Assembly (NCBI GenBank): GCA_028753945.1
Contig: JAPNXP010000013.1
Coordinates: 3,224,001-3,288,000, forward strand
Reading direction: 5' to 3'
DNA length: 64,000 bases
Origin: Hexactinellida sp. DTS-2022
Lineage: Eukaryota; Porifera; Hexactinellida
Shown here one piece after another: positions 2,701 through 51,709 of this stretch. A program made the position numbers and the translations under genes. The stretch's first letter is position 1, and every line of letters starts with the position of its first letter. The notes beneath the pieces were generated by a model. It saw only the letters and a list, made by a program, of their open reading frames with translations. It was not told the origin of the DNA and did no database searches.

Positions 2701-3178
2701 ACAGTGATACTTTAACCGATTGTCAGACATACAATATGAAGACGTGAAATTATATAAAACTATAATATAAATATTATATATCTATTTGTTTACTCCTCTT
2801 AACATAATTATCCGTCCCCATCTGTACCAAACTGATAGTAATCAAGAAGCCATACTATCAGTGTTTTTTAAGGCAAATTAGGCCCAAAATGGGCTTCTAA
2901 TTTTTCTCAATGGGCTTCTAATTTTTAACGTGAAAAGTACTCAATATCATGAAATGTAGAGTGAGAGCCAGTAATTGTTGGGGTGAGGGCATCTACTTGT
3001 TGGTAGGGCCCTCTAAGCAAATCCCTAAAATACTATAATTATAAAATTGAAAGTGAAGTTGAATACAACATCTTCCGCGGTAGATGTTAACATGTTTCAA
3101 GTGTCAACATCCACCGTAGCATATACAAGGCAAATTTTATTACTCCTTGACTATAGCTATCACACAACTCACTCACTC

Positions 3179-4038
3179 CAGGCTTGGAGCGGGTCATGAT
3201 TTCATGACCAGGTGATCCGGTTGACCCAGTAAGCTCAGACCCGGTGAGTTCTGACCCGGTGACCCGATTGACCCGGTAAGTAGGTATACTGTGACCAGCG
3301 CTACCAAAGAAATTTAAATTGAAGTGCTATGTCTCATAACAATTAAACGCCCACTATATTAGATGAATCTTTCTAAGTTTTATAATTCTACAAACCAATA
3401 AATTTTTATTAGCATTACTAGGAAGAACCGGGTCAAATCAAGATTAAGTGATCCAGTTGACCCAGTGATCCGGTGACCCGGTCCAATCCGGACCCGGTAG
3501 TCACGGTTGTATCAACTCATTTTGAGTTGGAAGAATCAACTCATTTTCTTGAATGAGTTGAATGAGTTGGTGACAGCAAAATGAATGAGTTGAATGAGTT
3601 GGTAACAAAAAAATGAATGAGTTGAATGAGTTGGTAGACAAAAAATGAGTTGATACAACCCTACTTCCGACCATGGCCAGACAACTTTCACTTTGTCGTA
3701 ACATTAATGCGTAGGGAGATCCAAATTTGGCCATATCACTTTTGAGAGCCGACCGACGCAGCTGTAAATGTATTATTAAACTGAAGATTTAAGATATACG
3801 TTAGTTACAATTAGTTTAATAAAAAATGAGTTGGCAGAATCAACTCATTTTCTTGAATGAGTTGGTAACAGCAAAATGAATGAGTTGAATGAGTTGGTGA
3901 AGGAAATTTGAATGAGTTGGTAGACAAAAAATGAGTTGTTTTGCCAACTCAAAATGAGTTGATACAACCCTGCCGGTAGTGACCCAGAATTTTAGCGAAT
4001 ATTGTCACCCGGTTGACCCGTGACCCGGTTCAAGCCTG
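3179..4038. mobile_element. hAT-type MITE with GACCCGGT arrays (860 bp with insert)
   Basis: Left terminus CAGGCTTGGAGCGGGTCA, right terminus TGACCCGGTTCAAGCCTG. The exact 8 bp duplication ACTCACTC lies at 3171-3178 and 4039-4046. The interior near both ends is an array of GACCCGGT/GACCCAGT motifs. It contains the 471 bp MITE at 3502-3972. A partial second copy, without the right end, is in the other arm of the palindrome (about 5840-6163). Confidence 0.85.
3502..3972. mobile_element. hAT-type MITE, CAGGGTTGTATCAAC family, copy 1
   Basis: Ends are CACGGTTGTATCAAC (one change from the family) and GTTGATACAACCCTG, with CCGGTAGT duplicated at 3494-3501 and 3973-3980. The interior consists of two blocks rich in AATGAGTTG repeats, separated by a unique segment of about 130 bp (TTCCGACCATGGCCAGACAA onward). 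Open frames encoding runs of LIQLIQ/NSFNSF come from this 9-mer array and are not genes. Other full copies: 15463-15942, 39291-39706 and 62745-63192. Confidence 0.92.
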
Positions 4039-4896
4039 ACTCACTCAATCAAATTAATTAAATAAAATTAATCCAAAAATCAAACTCAGTTTAATAATCA
4101 ATCAATAAATCATTCATTCAATCATTTCTATTCCGGATTGCAAATGAATAGGAAAATTTCCAGTTTATTCACGAAGGAAAATATGGGACAGCGGAATATG
4201 ATCAACTTTAGGTAGGAATATGACCAACTAGCGTGATGCTAGGAATTAGACCAACGCATTTCTAAAGTAGGAATCACACCAATGCAGTGGTAGGAATTAG
4301 ACTGTGGATCTTGAGGCGCAATTATTTAAGGAAAATATTATTTATTCTAAATTTACTCTATACTACAATAAATTATCTTGTGAATTATCACATTTGAAAG
4401 ACTTAATTGTAAATTACTTGCCTTCAAAAAGACCGGGATTTTATCTGTATTCTCCTTATTTATTTATTTATTTATTATTTGATACAATAATAGTAGGAAC
4501 TCAATTTTATTTTATTAACCTATTAATTAATTGAAACAACAAACGGAAAACATACAAGTTATTTAGATTGCCATCATATGGGAATCTAAATAACATTTTC
4601 GCATTTCCTCAAAATTTCCTTCTTCAAACCTCTAACTTTCCTCATTCACTAAAATTCCCCAAACTTAGCCCCAACTTAGTTTCTACTTATGCTTAAACGA
4701 AACTAAGCAAAAACTAAGTTTGTGCTCAAACTTAACTTAACTTTGATCAAACTTCACACAAGCCTACTTGTTGCTAAACTTAACTCAATCTTATTTGGTG
4801 TACCTCTACAAACTACAGTATATACATATATTTCATTTCTATCTACAAGCAAATTACATACAAACAAATATAAATATATACATACATACACCCAGC

Positions 4897-16083: not shown

Positions 16084-18900
16084 ATGCCGAATAAATGCTC
16101 AGCACCTAAGTGCAGGAGTAATTACGCTGGCGAGCAACCTACACCTGTGTTCAAGATGCCAGATGCCCCCCCCCCCGAGATCGTTGCTCTATGGAAAGCG
16201 TTTCTTCACAGAGAACATATCGAAGACATTAAAAAGATCTACGTCTGTCTGAAACACTTCCACGATGAAGATGTTGAAACACACTTTCTATCCCCCAACC
16301 AGACGGAACTAGGCTGGAGGTTAAGCGTAGTGTTCCTAGACTTCATAAAGATGCTATCCCAAGAATTCTACCTGGTTGTCCGAGTTATCTTTCTAACTTA
16401 ACCCAGAAACAAAATTGTTTGGATCGTTGTACTAAAGAGCGAGACCAGTTGGATGCTGCGATAAAACAAAGCTTGGAACAACAGAAGGTAGAAGAAGGAA
16501 AATTAAAATGAGCTACGCTATGTGAGTTAAAGTCTAAAGTTCATAGTTTGACCCTTCCACAGGATTGGCTAATCTGGTTACGTGGTGTTAACCAACTACA
16601 TTTTCTTAAGCTATCTACGTCGCATGAAAATGGTGCCCATTTTATTGAGTGTTCACTCACGATAGACGAATCTTTTAAGTACTAAAGGTTTTTACAACAG
16701 TAAACGAATTCCCGTTTCGATAAACCAGATTCGAGACCTTAGAGATATTGAAATCTTATTGAGAGAACTATCTCATAATAGTCTTAGTAATAAAATCTCA
16801 GATAATGTTTCTAATAATCAGGGATCGAAACAGCCAAGCTGTTAACAGCCACTGGCTGTTAACAGCTATTGAAAATCGAAGCTGTTAACAGCTAGATGCT
16901 GACCAATGCAATAATTGAAATATTATTATATAATCATTTAGTTTCAAATTTCACTGTTATGTAAATACGATATACAATTCGAATTTAAACATTTTTGAGT
17001 ATAACTTTCTTTGCTTGTCCCTTTTCCTTAATTTTTACTGATATAATTATTGAATTTGAACAGCTTGAATTGGCTGTTAACAGCTCTCATTAGCTCTTAA
17101 CAGCTTAAAGGCGACTTAAATTCGTTAAGGAATTGGGGACGAATTCTTAGCTGTTAACAGCGCTGTTAAGAGCAAATAGTTAGCTGTTAAGAGCAAACAG
17201 CCAAAATGGCTGTTAACAGCAGATTCACCACCCCTGCTAATAATACTTTAAAACTTGTAAGTGATGCCACCGAGGTCTTAAATCTCGCGATTGATGAAAT
17301 ATCCAAGTCAGAACTTGAATCTCACAACGAAAACAACAAGTTACCTGCTATCCAGTTCATACATTGTCAATTAACAAATCTTCTATGTAAAAGAATCATC
17401 GTAGCTATAATATTGGAACTATAATAATTGCACTAAAATGTAAACTTATCTCTCCAGCCTGCTATCAATATCTACAATCTCTTGATTCTCTCTCGCTTCC
17501 TCACTATTCAACCCTCAAGCGTTTATATTCAAAATTTGGCTTTGATTGTGAATATAGTTCATTTTTGGAAAGAGCTACATCTCATTTTAACCAGAGAGAA
17601 CGAAACGTGATACTACAGATGGATGAAATACATGTTAAATCTGAGTTAGCATACAAAGGAGGAAAAGAGTTCGGTTCGTCTCACAATACTATAGAACCTG
17701 CAAAAACAATTTTTGCATTTATGGTTTCCAGTTTATCTAAGAAGTGGTCCACTATTGCACCACACATTGTCGATCCTAATCGTCCGTTATTCTTAATATT
17801 TGATTTCGTACACATCATTAAATCTATTCGAAATAACTGGATCAATCAGAAAGATTCCTGCAGGAGCTTTACATATCCAAACTTCGAAGATTTTTCGACT
17901 AATTACACTGCTTCATTTGAAAACATTAGAACTCTTTATAAGGCTGATCAACATTCTATAGCAAAATTGGCTCCTCGCTTAACAGCCAAAGCATGCTGGC
18001 CTTCTAACTTGGAGCGTCAGAATGTTAACTTAGCGTTAAAAGTTTTTGATGATTCTACTCACTCGGCGCTCAGGCTTCAATATCTTTCATTTCCTAATCT
18101 CCATACCTATCATCACACAGCTGTTTTAATTCGAGTTGTTTGTGATATATGGAAGATGTTCAATATTAACACTCCATCTAAATCAATTCGATTAAACGAT
18201 CAACTTTGTAAACCATTCGTAGAAAACGATCCAAGGTTCTGCTATCTATCACAAGTTGTTGATTGGCTCGAAAAATGGGAAAAATTACCTGGTAAAGCTG
18301 GGAAACTTACTTCTCAGACTTTTAAAAGCTTTCGCCACTCTACTTTAGCACTACCTTCAATAGTTAACCATCTTACTCAAAACTGTAACTTTTCGTTTGT
18401 TCTCACATCTTTCCTACAGAATGATCCTCTTGAGCACCACTTTGGAATATACCGAATGATGTCCGGTGCTCAATATCATATTAGCTTCTGTCAAATCCTC
18501 GAGAGTGAACGACGTTTAAAGTTGTCAAATATCCTAAAAATATTTTCAAGTGGTGGTTGAGAAAAAGATTGTTCTATCAAAGAATTTATTGACTCTTTTA
18601 TAGCATTGACAGAATCTCAGCCTGCTAGTCATTTTCAAATTGAACATTTCCTACCCGCTGTGCAGAATTTATCCCTCGTTAATGTTCCGACTCAAACTCT
18701 TCAGGCACTCGCGTTTATAGCTGGGTATACTGTTTATAGTTATTTTAAAATTCAAACCGTTGTCAATCTTGCTTATCTTTCCTGACAGAGGATAAAGAGA
18801 TGGAAATCGAGACATCAGAATCAATTTACAAGCTGCTGCAAATTATGGATCGTGGTGCACTGAAATGGCCATCTGGATTTGTAGTTAATGAATAGTTTGC
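16084..18900 (+). pseudogene. THAP-domain P-element transposase, interrupted
   Basis: The gene starts MPNKCSAPKCRSNYAG at 16084; C-x4-C and a later VCLKHF give the C2CH zinc set of a THAP DNA-binding domain (residues 1 to about 75). A glutamine/lysine-rich, probably coiled segment follows (16399-16510). Next is WLRGVNQLHFLK (16575-16610), then a MITE (16819-17236), then the catalytic part: QMDEIHVKSELAYKGG (first Asp, about 17617), FIFDFVHIIKSIRNNW (about 17790-17840) and DPLEHHFGIYRMMSG (Glu, about 18425). C-terminal IAGYTVYSYFK (18717 on) and DRGALKWPSGFVVNE follow. This order matches THAP9/P transposases, which bind element ends and cut and paste DNA. Frameshifts near 16400, 17430-17565 and 18560, plus stops, make this copy inactive. 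Confidence 0.85.
16819..17236. mobile_element. hAT-type MITE with GCTGTTAACAGC array (418 bp)
   Basis: Ends CAGGGATCGAA and TTCACCACCCCTG; exact duplication CTAATAAT at 16811-16818 and 17237-17244. Several copies of the palindrome GCTGTTAACAGC (and GCTGTTAAGAGC) are clustered at 16835-16900 and 17085-17220. It splits the P transposase gene. A related element is at 56250-56873. Confidence 0.9.
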
Positions 18901-43088: not shown

Positions 43089-46000
43089 GTGGGTTCAAAA
43101 ATTAAGATTCCGTGACCAACATCTGGCTACTAGTTAAGTTTTATGCCTGATTCTGATACTTTAGGATATATCTCGCGATTTAAGCTCTCATGCCGGTCTG
43201 GAAACTTTGGGAAAAAATTTATAAACCGACAAATGTAATGGGCCTAAGGCGATCATTTTGAAAAATTGACTTTTTTGTCAAAGGGTCTACTAACTTCAAT
43301 AATACCTCTTTTTATACTTATTTGAGTGCGAGTAATCCATTTCCGAGGTTATTTCGGAGATTAGAAGTGTGCTTGGCAAATTAATTCAGTATGGCCTCCG
43401 CTTATAGAGACAAAAATGTACATTTCGTAGAAATTATGTAACCTTAATAAATAATATTTAAAATTTATAGTGGAAATATATAATAGGAAGTGATAATACT
43501 TAGTCTTAGATTATTATTAGACATTGTATAGCTAACTCTTCTTTTAATTACCCTAGTGTCATTTTTCACATTCCTGAGACTGAGTAGTGTAGTAATCAAC
43601 TCGTACTGTACACCGCATAATAATTACTTGATGACTTCTATACAACTCGAGTGTCTTCTTCAATGTGGAATACCCTGTGAGTCATCAGAATCAATGGACA
43701 GCATTTTGAAAGAAACATGGGACAATTTAAAACTTAAAGCATTTAACTGGAAAGGCCTTGATAGGTTTGGGAATGTGTATGATACTGTGGATTGGGAACT
43801 GGGCCCCTGTGGCAAATATATAGATAGTAACTGTCGATTCGATATTTCCAGCTCAGATAAATTGAATAGATCTAAGACGAGGCAGCAAAAACTTTAGGGA
43901 GAATCAGCATCTCTTGTTCAAACCGACGATTACACTAGTCAACATGGTCAAGATTTGTTCCCATCTGCCCCTAAGCGTCTTCGATCGAGCGTAGGTATCT
44001 TGCATGACAAAAATCTATGTGTATGGTGTATGAAACCTGAAAATACTAAACATCCTGAACGAACGGGAAAATGGTTTCTCATTTCCTATACACCAGCATG
44101 GAATATCTTTAGAAGCCACACTCTAGCGCTACAGGATGACGCCATGAGGGAACGAATCAACCGCCTCATCGATTCAACTATTGACCCATTTTCAACCGAG
44201 CTAAGGTACCACCATAAGTGTTGGCTTAAGTACATTAATGCCTATCAAAAGATGTCGTTTGAACATAAACTCCCTCTCCTACACGAACTAAACTTACGTG
44301 AAGCACAGATTATGTTCATAGACCATGCTCGCCATGTCATATTTGCTGACCATGAAATCAGTACGCTCCAGGGGTTGCTGCTTGATTATCAAAACATTGT
44401 GAGTACTTATGGGTTTCCGAATTCGGGAATCATGTCAAGGTATATAAAGGAGTTATTAGTGCGAGATTTTGGTGCTGACATAGGTTTTCATTCTCGTCCT
44501 CATAAGAATCAGAGTGAGGTTGTCTACGATACCGGGGCGGTGGCTCATACATTGAGGTTGCTATATCTTCACTGGTAATTACCAATGAGCAGCTGGTGCA
44601 GAATGTGGCGAGTAGAGGTAAAAAATACAACGACAGCCTCATGGCCCCCACAAGTTGCTGAGCTCAAACAGGAGGAAAATATCTCCAATCTCATTGTCCA
44701 ATTTATCTCTTCGCTTAAAAAAGCTGGTCAGGCCGAGCCTGACGCCAAGACACGCGCACTTGCTTCATTGCTTACATACTACGTTACGGGCAGTCCGACA
44801 ACTAAGTCAATCAACCTGACGATGAATTTGCATGGAATTACTCGAAGCAAGGAGCTAGTCGATACGTTTCACAAAAGGGGTGTTTGCATTAATCATGCAT
44901 CAGTACTCCTTCTGCGAGATGCATGGGCGATGCACGACCTCAAGTTCTGCACAGACTGTCCCAATGAAATCGCTGAGGCCGAGCCTGGCGTCGTCATCGT
45001 AGACAACGATGACTTTCGAAACGACACGTTTACTGGCGGGAACACATCACATCGAACAAACGTGATGTATGTTCGGCGGATATCCCTTGAACATCGAGGT
45101 CCTCATTATAGTGAACGTGTTAAAGACCCAAAAGCACCATCATCGACCCTAAAGGAGATAGCGAAAGAGATGCATACCCATCAGCTTTACCTTACCCACA
45201 ATCGGGGAGCGCCGCCAGTTAGAAATAGGGTACCGCCTGATGCTGGGAATATTAAGCCTCAAAGCACACATTGGTTCGTGCAGATGCTGCTGGTGAGCGG
45301 CCTTCGTGTATTCTCCAAAAAGTTCCTGGTTTCGCTGGCTTACAAGCTTTGATCTCTGTCCCCGTAGAGAGGAGCAAGGCTTATTACTTAATGACCTACC
45401 CAGATCCGCCCAAGAAGTCAATTATCAACGATGTTATGGCAAATGTGAAGAACGCTATCGAGAGAAAACGTATGCCATTTGCGGTAATGGTTGGTGATCA
45501 GCCAGTATACACACTGCTTGTTGAGATCAAGAGCGAGCATCCACAAAAGTACGATAAGATTATTCCGTTCCTCGGACCCTTCCATACTCATTGTTGCATG
45601 ATATATGCTATATACAAGCGGCATAAGGGGAGTGAGATCGCCGAGGTTCTGGTTGCTGGTGGCGTAATAGCTGATGGTTCTGTAGATCAGGCCTTAAGAG
45701 GGAAGCGTTATAGGCGAGCCCTGCTTTGCCTTATGCATATGTATGAAGCACTCATGTATCTTCTTCTAAATAGAAATCTAGCAAGATTTGAGCTCGCGCC
45801 TTCTACGAGGGCGCGGCTTGCCGAGCTTCGTGACCCTAAGCATAACTGCCAAGAGTTCCTATCCACTGGTCATGAGGAGCTCGAGAATGATCCGTGCATA
45901 GATAACTTCTTCAAAAGGTTATTACATTAAAAGTATAGCCCCGATGAGACGAAATTTTCAGTGCAGCTACTACTTATTGTATACTGTTCAAAAATACTCT

Positions 46001-48509: not shown

Positions 48510-48521
48510 AGTGGCACAGTG
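48510..48521 (+). other. RAG-like terminus: target duplication AGTGG plus heptamer CACAGTG (3' end of element)
   Basis: AGTGG (48510-48514) directly abuts CACAGTG (48515-48521). Confidence 0.9.
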
Positions 48522-49875
48522 GTCTAAAATGGCAAATCAGGAGAAATCGCTATAAAAGCCATTCTAAACCTTTTTTAGACATCCTAAACCTATTATTGTT
48601 GAATAGTAAATCAACCACGGGAAATCCAATGATTACCTAAAAAACAGTGTATGACTTCAATTTTTCGAGTAATGACGTAATCACTTTATATATCATTAAT
48701 ATTAATTTCTCAAATTTGGTTGAGTTAATTTTTAATGCTGCCAAGTTATAGAGGTATACATAGTATTGTATTTATATGCAACTATAAAGATATTACATGA
48801 ATTATTCTCTAATTAACCTCAAGAATAGCTCATGATTCGTTAGATGACCGATTTTTTGTTTTTGTTTGAGTTCTATGTTTTTCCTTTGTAAGAATGAAAC
48901 ATAATTACTCTGACAGAGGAGACGCACGAACACATCGCGGATATTATCCTCGAAGTTTGTTTTTCGTGCCAATAACTCGCGGTATCTTCTTATGTGCTTG
49001 TTGCACGATTCCAAGCCTTCTTCGGAAAACGCTTTAATTCCTCTTCCTTCATTAAATCTTGACATTAATTCTACTGAGTGAGCTAAAATCTTATGGAGCG
49101 TTGGTGTGACATTGGCCCAAGAAAAGTGATCAATGATAAGTTGGTAAGTGTCCTTGCAATGAGTTTCTAATGTTTCCTCGTTAATAGTATTGTCGCTGTT
49201 GTAAATCCTGAGAATGATACCAAGATTCGAGTGAATGGTGGTAAACGACTGTCTGCAATCATTCGGTAACAAGGTCACAACCCATCGGAGATAACTATTT
49301 GTTTCATCGCACTTTCCAGAAAAACACTGCCTTGCCACGTTTCCAGTGGTTGATGTTCCCCCTTGACTATTTGGAAAGTCGATCCTAATTCCCGTTTTCT
49401 CTTGTAAGAAATCGCGAACAAATGCTTTAGAAGTTTCGATTTTGGAAGACGTAGGTGATCATTTTCTTACTCCTGCATGAAGGTGGTAAACAAGGTTCAT
49501 CAACCAAGAAAATATTCTAATGTATCCGTGTAATGGAGAGGCTGGTAAGATATCGATTGTTGAAATTGGTCTGTGAGTAATATTGAATCGTTTCGAAGGA
49601 TGTCTGGCCAAAAACTCTTCTTCGTATACCTCAAGAAATATCTCCTTTGCTAGTTGGATGCTTCGATTAATGGGGAACCCGTGTTGGATTAAATACCTGT
49701 CTTTTAATTGTTCGGTACATAAGTGACAAGCCGCTCCACCGGCACCATCCAGAATACCTGCCATTTTAGTATCGAACATAGCTCGTTCAACCCTCACGTT
49801 ACATTTCCCTTGGGGAAGCTCAAATCCGTTCGTTTGAATGTATTCCGTTTGAAAATTAATGTTCTCCATTAGAAA

Positions 49876-50058
49876 CAGGGAATTATCCAGGAGAGCAAGA
49901 CGCTCCTTTTGGAGTATGATATAAGGAAAAAAATTAATTAGGAGCGCGAAAAATTGGATCTTCTCCTATACCGTAACATTAATTTGTAATTTAGGCGTAT
50001 GAAAATTGGATCAGACCAGGATTAGGAGCGTATTTACAAATGTCTGTATAATACACAG
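49876..50058. mobile_element. hAT-type MITE (183 bp) inside the RAG1-like gene
   Basis: Ends CAGGGAATTATCCAGGAGAG and TATTATACACAG; exact duplication ATTAGAAA at 49868-49875 and 50059-50066. Reading frames on both sides are in phase if the element and one duplication are discounted. The twin copy is 36728-36891. Confidence 0.9.
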
Positions 50059-50924
50059 ATTAGAAAGCGTACGTTATCTTCATTTTCTGGGACTGCAAAT
50101 AATGACAAAGGACGCACAGCAAAAGGAGAGTTAGGTATTGGATTTTTCCAAATTATTTCCTTTGTATTATCCGTAATGTGTATTATTCGGAAACAAAATA
50201 AAAGGAATGTTTTAGTTGAGATATCAGGATGTTCTTGCAATTGGTTGTAGAGTCTGTGACAACCAGATCCATCTAAGCCATCAACTATTGTTATATTAAT
50301 TGGGTAACGGGTATTTTGAAGGCTTTCGTCAAATTCGACCAGTTGGTGCACTGTGATGGCGAGGATATCTCTATAAGGTATCGTGATTCCTATAGGATGG
50401 TTTAATTTGGTCACAATTTGGAGTTCGTTTAATAAATTAACCTTTGAACGGAAGAGGCTAAGCTTATTATAGGAAGATAAAATTACATTCTCCGATTTCA
50501 AGAAGCGTCGAAATTCGGTATACTTTCTCCTCCCTAAAGATAAGAAATCGATAAGAAATGAGCAATTAGATTTACTCAGTTCACGACTAGAGGAGCCAAA
50601 AGTACCAGTTTCGACTATTTCTTTGCAAAAATCTGACACCGTATAATCCTTCTCGTCGTTTGAAATAAGCTGCAAAAGTAAGGCAGCTACTTGTTTTGCA
50701 GAGATTTTTTCAATTTCGGCATAATCTCGAACACAGTCCAAGAGACTTGACAATCTGTTTCATGATGCTTTACAGAACATTCTAGCAAGGGCTTCAATCG
50801 AGAACTAGGCTTTTCTCCTAGATCTGAAGAAGTAGCAGTTACTGTACATGTATGTGCAATAGATGGGCCGAAGAAGCCAAGTTTCCAAGCTTCGAGTGTT
50901 TGTCTTTTTCTGACAAACACTCTC

Positions 50925-50940
50925 TCTCTCTCTTAGTAAC
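50925..50940. repeat. (CT)n microsatellite in the RAG1-like coding region
   Basis: A run of CT dinucleotides (AG on the coding strand) where the reading frame shifts. A slippage change of repeat number explains the frameshift. Confidence 0.75.
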
Positions 50941-51697
50941 CCCACAAATTTCATTCGGTAATGGTCAGAATACTCGTCTTGAACAGAACATTGTGCCATG
51001 AACTTACGAGTCAAGGAACTAAGGTTTTCAGAATCATTCTCTTTCAAAAAGGTGTACACTTTGTTATTGTCCATGAGTCTTGTAATTTCTATTCATAATG
51101 TAACATTTATAAACAAAACAAAAAATTATATCTTGTCAAATTTAAGTGAGATTTTAGGTGATTGGGCTTACTCTTAGCCTATTTTTAAGATTGTTTGCGG
51201 GTACCTGCGGGTATAAATATATTTTTAATTATACTAGAATAGATATATAACTAATAATTTATGTTGGTATTACGCTTCTCAATTCACTTCAATTTGAGAT
51301 TTTGCTCTCTGATTACCTGAAAATTAGTTAAATTAATACAATTGATTGGAAAATTTGAACAGCTCATAATAGGTTTAATAAGCAAATAAATCTGCAAGAA
51401 ATTATTAATATCGAATAAAGGAGAAAAAATGCATTATAAATATGGTTACACTTTGCATTCACTATTTATAGAAAGTAACCTGGAGATTGGAATAGTCAAT
51501 GGTATTTTGATAGACGTCATTTGACACTGTAACTCAATATCATAGTTATGACTTCAGTCGAGTGTTATCGGAATGTAACCACACTCAATTTTCAAAATCA
51601 ATGCATTTTCTAGGTTTACAACTATGCAGAATTTTATGAAGCTAAAATTACCCAAAACAAGTGATGTCAAAATTTCGAATTTTTCTCCTGGTTTGAC

Positions 51698-51709
51698 CAC
51701 TGTGAGTGG
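51698..51709 (-). other. RAG-like terminus: heptamer CACTGTG plus target duplication AGTGG (5' end of element)
   Basis: CACTGTG (51698-51704, inverse of CACAGTG) directly abuts AGTGG (51705-51709). Confidence 0.9.

Follow-up and report, generated by a model that had tools for sequence, protein, structure and literature searches.

Among the Transib transposons, those of Subgroup I, to which ctenophore and Hydra Transib-9_HM proteins appear to belong, stand nearest to the RAG1-like (RAG1L) elements (Tao et al, 2022; PMC9435367). The same study describes AanRAGL, a transposon of the alga Aureococcus that carries RAG1L together with a RAG2-like (RAG2L) gene and whose ends consist of a 13-bp and a 10-bp element set 4 or 13 bp apart. 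For HzTransib and the other insect Transibs (Subgroup II), CAC ends and 5-bp duplications have been described, with symmetric ends in most families (PMC8289069) and reportedly one or a few autonomous copies per genome (PMC4411706). Here, we analyzed a stretch of 64,000 nucleotides from the glass sponge Hexactinellida sp. DTS-2022 (contig JAPNXP010000013.1, positions 3,224,001 to 3,288,000; hereafter, the window), together with the sponge's own genome (112.4 Mb, 18 contigs), and confirmed that window positions 48515-51704 hold a RAG1-like transposon with two matched ends and one gene. By its RAG1-core transposase, its CAC ends with 5-bp duplications and its single gene, it is a member of the Transib superfamily. 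It is very probably the fossil of a cut-and-paste copy with Subgroup I traits, whose transposase would have worked as a dimer on two unlike ends.

The sequence-only reading of the window had proposed inverted CACAGTG ends and an exact AGTGG duplication on either side, and both were found in the window element, with CACAGTG ends and 5-bp duplications recurring in many further copies. Each terminus of the window element reads CACAGTGGTC inward, and a second conserved block lies 9 bp nearer the heptamer at the right end than at the left end. At least 76 pieces of the own genome match the element (40 of 1,858 candidates scored). The near full-length sisters are L009, L010, L011 (one side of which is absent) and L012+L013, a single copy parted by ~14 kb of other DNA and flanked by TTACT on both sides; pairwise identities are 97.9-99.2%. 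All 14 two-ended copies of the window family, namely, the window copy, L009, L010, ten internally deleted forms (1.1-1.3 kb) and L035 (5.5 kb), begin with CACAGTGG at either end and are bordered by an exact 5-bp duplication, in different flanks, so that the pattern is far beyond chance. The 31 loci behind this count comprise 13 counted as two-ended, 2 that are the halves of the split copy and 16 excluded for an absent or altered end or for membership of another subfamily; L030, one of those excluded, has a shortened right end, yet CGTAG on both sides.

The blocks DGLDGSGCH, GAGGAACHLC, GNVAR, HKILAH and SEEGLESCNKHIRRYR follow one another on the minus strand in the same order as in RAG1, as had been read from the sequence. 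We take the first catalytic Asp, in DGLDGSGCH, the Asp of MFDTKM and the third catalytic acid, in SEEGLESCNK, to be the counterparts of RAG1 D600, D708 and E962, respectively. The proposed homology to RAG1 and Transib was borne out by structure comparison, in which the predicted protein matched RAG1, HzTransib and ProtoRAG and covered the RAG1 core end to end, including the nonamer-binding domain, and more narrowly by the Pfam RAG1 profile, which gave borderline scores of 25 bits (cut-off 25) for one window frame and 24.5 bits, under the cut-off, for the longer L013 frame. The Asp-Asp-Glu (D-D-E) residues and the CxxC and HxxxxH zinc ligands are present at residues aligned to RAG1 and HzTransib. 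The family proteins are ~700 amino acids (aa) long and start ~90 residues ahead of the nonamer-binding domain; on the full-length RAG1 chain, the region matched by the profile starts at residue 370.

Compared with the sister copy L009, the window gene contains several small indels and a 191-bp insertion with the 8-bp repeat ATTAGAAA on its two sides, and its frame is in pieces because of them. Thus, the description of the transposon as complete holds for both ends and fails for the gene. Although this copy is dead, there are intact relatives. The insertion belongs to a separate short repeat family, found at at least 10 other places with 85-94% identity, and the 8-bp duplication around it suggests a hAT-type non-autonomous element.

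Nine intact relatives (2975-3831 bp, with a transposase of 711-744 aa), drawn from the 14 two-ended elements of the strict and relaxed end scans described below, have a longest frame mostly outside the transposase of 95 aa and, therefore, encode no RAG2-like propeller. The convergent RAG2-like gene that defines the RAG-like (RAGL) transposons is absent from these nine elements, in which no RAG2-like gene fits, in agreement with the earlier statement that the transposase has no RAG2 partner. A genome-wide search with the RAG2 Pfam profile was also empty, but it carries little weight since its control gave no match either.

The window family is part of a larger one. A search of the own genome with the Pfam RAG1 profile returned 68 places at E ≤1, 15 of them above the cut-off, and 13 of the 68 (the L013 copy among them) lie in frames that run unbroken for 690 aa or more, in contrast to the one or few autonomous copies per genome reported for Transibs (PMC4411706). 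Twenty of the places were fetched, 18 with long transposase frames and 2 broken. A strict end scan, based on a CAC start, an exact 5-bp duplication and the best inverted match, located both ends in 12 of the 18, with inverted-match scores of 9-18 compared with at most 6 in 90 shuffles, and 11 of these 12 have CACAGTG as the heptamer of each end, L058 having one CACATTG. A relaxed scan added L048, with an exact duplication, and L053, in which 4 of 5 duplication bases agree, and gave no clear end pair for L042, L046, L056 and L059. Many subfamilies, at ~40-60% identity, coexist in the own genome. Intact copies inside one subfamily differ by a synonymous divergence (dS) of at most 0.02 (six pairs), with a ratio of nonsynonymous divergence (dN) to dS of 0.38-0.74 where defined, whereas dN between subfamilies is 0.24-0.33 with dS saturated; from these values, we infer that the family has moved recently and that, over longer times, selection has preserved its protein. 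The L053 frame is 85% identical to a protein of the glass sponge Oopsacas minuta, the species to which all named matches (7 of 44 in one search and two in another) belong.

The locus L042 stands apart. It holds, at positions 2716-4809 (+), a very divergent intact RAG1-like frame of 698 aa with the best RAG1 Pfam score in the genome, and no second copy was seen among the candidates scored. The frame is followed by a stop, beyond which lie a zinc knuckle of the exact CCGHC form and, further on, a CACAGTGGG 3' end; the 5' end was not found.

The zinc-binding region separates the family from the insect-type Transibs, with which it shares the transposase fold, the D-D-E residues and the single gene. 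Compared by length only, this stretch has a median of 62 residues in the family (43 of 62 measured, range 4-63) and 27 residues in Transib-type proteins, where 95 of 120 could be measured and spanned 25-28. The CCHC zinc-knuckle pattern occurs in 8 of 24 family proteins and was recognized by eye in 5 of 10 own-genome alignment rows, some with spacings 1-2 residues off the published form, whereas no zinc knuckle was detected in the 105 insect-type Transib proteins scanned. An unrooted tree (LG+C20 with posterior mean site frequencies, PMSF) was built from 39 hand-chosen rows, consisting of 21 family members, 15 of the 120 Transib-type proteins, HzTransib, ProtoRAG and mouse RAG1 fragments, among which mouse RAG1 sits on a long branch and the letter composition of ProtoRAG is unusual. 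The 16 Transib rows (the 15 and HzTransib) formed a 100/100 group without any of the 21 family rows, ProtoRAG and mouse RAG1 formed another 100/100 group, and 20 of the 21 family rows formed a 100/99 group between the two; L042 was left unplaced, the tests being undecided between its own family and the Transibs. The family, thus, sits between the insect-type Transibs and RAG1/ProtoRAG in the unrooted tree, where the sequence-only reading had put it. Its name for the element, a RAG1L-only transposon, needs revision; by its traits, the element is better called a Subgroup I Transib than a RAG1L-RAG2L element without its partner, and this intermediate class has already been described (PMC9435367). 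Judged from the published description of traits there, the family agrees with Subgroup I in its single RAG1-like gene, asymmetric ends, zinc-binding region of RAG1L length and position between RAG1L and the insect-type Transibs. A CTT1 tail with a CCGHC zinc knuckle, as in Subgroup I, is indicated for part of the family, and the window subfamily has lost it.

The asymmetry of the ends extends beyond the window copy. Twelve subfamilies were compared, one row each, after the near copies L045, L047 and L055 (of which L055 has a shorter 5' end and a best offset of 14) had been dropped. In 10 of the 12, the best match of 14 bp of the gene-5' end to the gene-3' end lay at an offset of 9 or 10; a first count on 10 subfamilies, without a tie-break, had given 7 of 10. 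Own-element end pairs yielded 116 identities, compared with a mean of 89 and a maximum of 112 for permuted pairs (0 of 20,000 permutations as good), indicating that the two ends change together. L048 and L053, which were found after the idea was formed, both gave an offset of 9, and their blocks matched at 10 and 10 of 10 and at 10 and 8 of 10, respectively. When a fixed motif was used, a clear second block close to TGGAAATAGG was located at nucleotides (nt) 17-18 and 27-28 in 7 of the 12 subfamilies. This geometry is the same as in AanRAGL, for which the spacings in PMC9435367 place the start of the second block at nt 18 and 27, although AanRAGL carries RAG2L and its block is CCTCAAYAYG. ProtoRAG, RAG1-RAG2 and the V(D)J signals likewise have a RAG1 core with a nonamer-binding domain, bipartite ends and two spacings, and the family heptamer CACAGTG is exactly the consensus of the recombination signal sequence (RSS); unlike them, the family lacks RAG2 and differs in the letters of the second block, which lies ~9-10 and 19-20 bp from the heptamer, compared with 12/23 for the RSS and 27/31 for ProtoRAG (PMC8289069).

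Some further patterns were noted at the ends. The gene-5' ends have only A/T at nt 32-35 in 12 of 12 subfamilies and are A-rich at nt 30-33, and nonamer-like stretches were seen by eye 20-22 bp from the heptamer, AAAAAAATC in L051 and L054 and ACAAAATC in L053; no such A-rich tract was seen by eye at the gene-3' ends. At ~nt 62-90 of the gene-3' ends, a block near ATGTATTATTNNCNTATRGGTTATCG was recognized by eye in most relatives and not in the window family.

Taken together, we propose the following mechanism. The single gene is predicted to encode a RAG1-core-like transposase with nonamer-binding, dimerization, pre-RNase H, RNase H (D-D-E), zinc-binding and C-terminal domains, a dimer of which most likely brings a gene-5' end together with a gene-3' end. 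The catalytic core would read the CACAGTG heptamer, and the second block would be read by other contacts, probably those of the nonamer-binding domain; the DNA would be cut at the heptamer edge and inserted with a 5-bp stagger. With the second block of the gene-3' end lying 9-10 bp, or roughly a turn of the helix, deeper inside the element than that of the gene-5' end, the enzyme would probably prefer an unlike pair of ends, as in the 12/23 rule of V(D)J recombination.

Several points weigh against this proposal and the Subgroup I assignment. The window subfamily has no zinc-knuckle tail, and the second-block sequence differs from the RSS nonamer. The 14-bp comparison window was picked after the ends of the window family had been inspected, the result for L043 was a tie with offset 0 that was settled by the tie-break, and in L054 and L058 the two ends match each other best at a different offset. 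The assignment to Subgroup I would be one by traits and tree position, not by clade, because the tree holds no published Subgroup I protein. If the asymmetry were a by-product of decay or shared descent with no role in pairing, the layout could have been inherited passively, given that the second-block letters are partly alike across subfamilies, and the two exceptions and one tie among 12 subfamilies would be readily understood; we consider this unlikely, though worth keeping in mind, in view of the own-element matching above every permuted pairing and the fit of the two later-found elements.

The origin of the family could also be viewed differently. Descent from a RAG1L-RAG2L transposon by loss of RAG2L (loss model; Martin et al, 2020) would account for what the family has in common with RAG1L, namely, a long zinc-binding region, a nonamer-binding domain and a zinc-knuckle tail that is limited to some subfamilies, and for the end geometry shared with the algal element where the second block is clear. 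This descent seems improbable to us, because no trace of RAG2 is found in the nine intact elements, with their short outside frames, and because the family profile scores HzTransib twice as high as ProtoRAG. HzTransib is, in addition, the best single sequence match in the PDB, and horizontal movement is known for Transibs (Tao et al, 2022; PMC9435367), as would suit an ordinary insect-type Transib gained by horizontal transfer; such an origin is nevertheless hardly credible, given the exclusion of all 21 family rows from the Transib group of the tree, the difference in zinc-binding length (62 vs 25-28 residues) and the many subfamilies within the own genome. We, therefore, favor a fossil copy of a Transib with Subgroup I traits, the features of which are listed in Table 1.

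Table 1. Positions of the parts of the RAG1-like element within the window.
Feature	Position	Strand	Remark
Left target-site duplication	48510..48514	+	AGTGG
Transposon body	48515-51704		3190 bp
Heptamer, left end	48515..48521	+	CACAGTG; 3' side of gene
Second conserved block, left end	48538..48546	+	CAGGAGAAA; first base is end nt 24
RAG1-like transposase gene	48799..51074	-	Broken: several frames, one insertion
Third catalytic acid block	48997..49026	-	SEEGLESCNK, first ten residues of SEEGLESCNKHIRRYR
Asp within MFDTKM	49771..49773	-	
Insertion interrupting the gene	49868..50058	unassigned (.)	191 bp, one 8-bp repeat ATTAGAAA included
First catalytic Asp block	50256..50282	-	DGLDGSGCH
Second block, right end	51682..51690	-	CAGGAGAAA; first base is end nt 15
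Heptamer, right end	51698..51704	-	CACAGTG; 5' side of gene
Right target-site duplication	51705..51709	+	AGTGG

Traces of other mobile elements were observed in the window. The RAG1-like element adjoins a hAT remnant, a frame with the hAT C-terminal dimerization domain (Pfam PF05699; 48322-48474, +) that ends 35 bp left of the duplication of the element. A frame at 17391-18560 (+) has a TNP-like RNase H domain (PF21787) and a GTP-binding insertion domain (PF21788), as do P-element/THAP9-type transposases. Three consecutive long frames at 43898-45930 (+), the last with a weak DUF6589 match under the cut-off, are probably another mobile element.

The class of the element is already known, and the glass-sponge host and the breadth and scale of its recent radiation appear to be new. 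The main text of Tao et al (PMC9435367) names no sponge, and its supplementary species lists may hold some; a term search in the main text of two glass-sponge genome papers found no 'RAG1', and no report of a sponge Transib or RAG1 was found in the open-licence literature, in the titles and abstract starts among the matches listed. Sponges would join the hosts of the intermediate branch. It is possible, although we hold it only tentatively, that glass sponges harbor a living pre-RAG2 radiation in whose ends the exact V(D)J heptamer already goes together with a further signal, which is placed at two spacings differing by one helical turn and is recognized by a nonamer-binding domain of the RAG1 type. 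In that case, a 12/23-like rule would predate RAG2, and the 17-18/27-28 geometry shared with the algal RAGL element would be ancestral. The family bears on the order in which the parts of V(D)J recombination arose, namely, the heptamer, the nonamer-binding domain, the unlike-end rule and RAG2. It has the heptamer and the nonamer-binding domain without RAG2, together with the paired one-turn asymmetry of its ends, which, in the absence of RAG2, is the part of most interest, and many of its subfamilies hold recently copied intact genes. Therefore, whether a 12/23-type rule existed before RAG2 can be tested in a simple in vitro system, and, if the proposal is true, a 12/23-like pairing rule would be open to dissection with a one-protein system.
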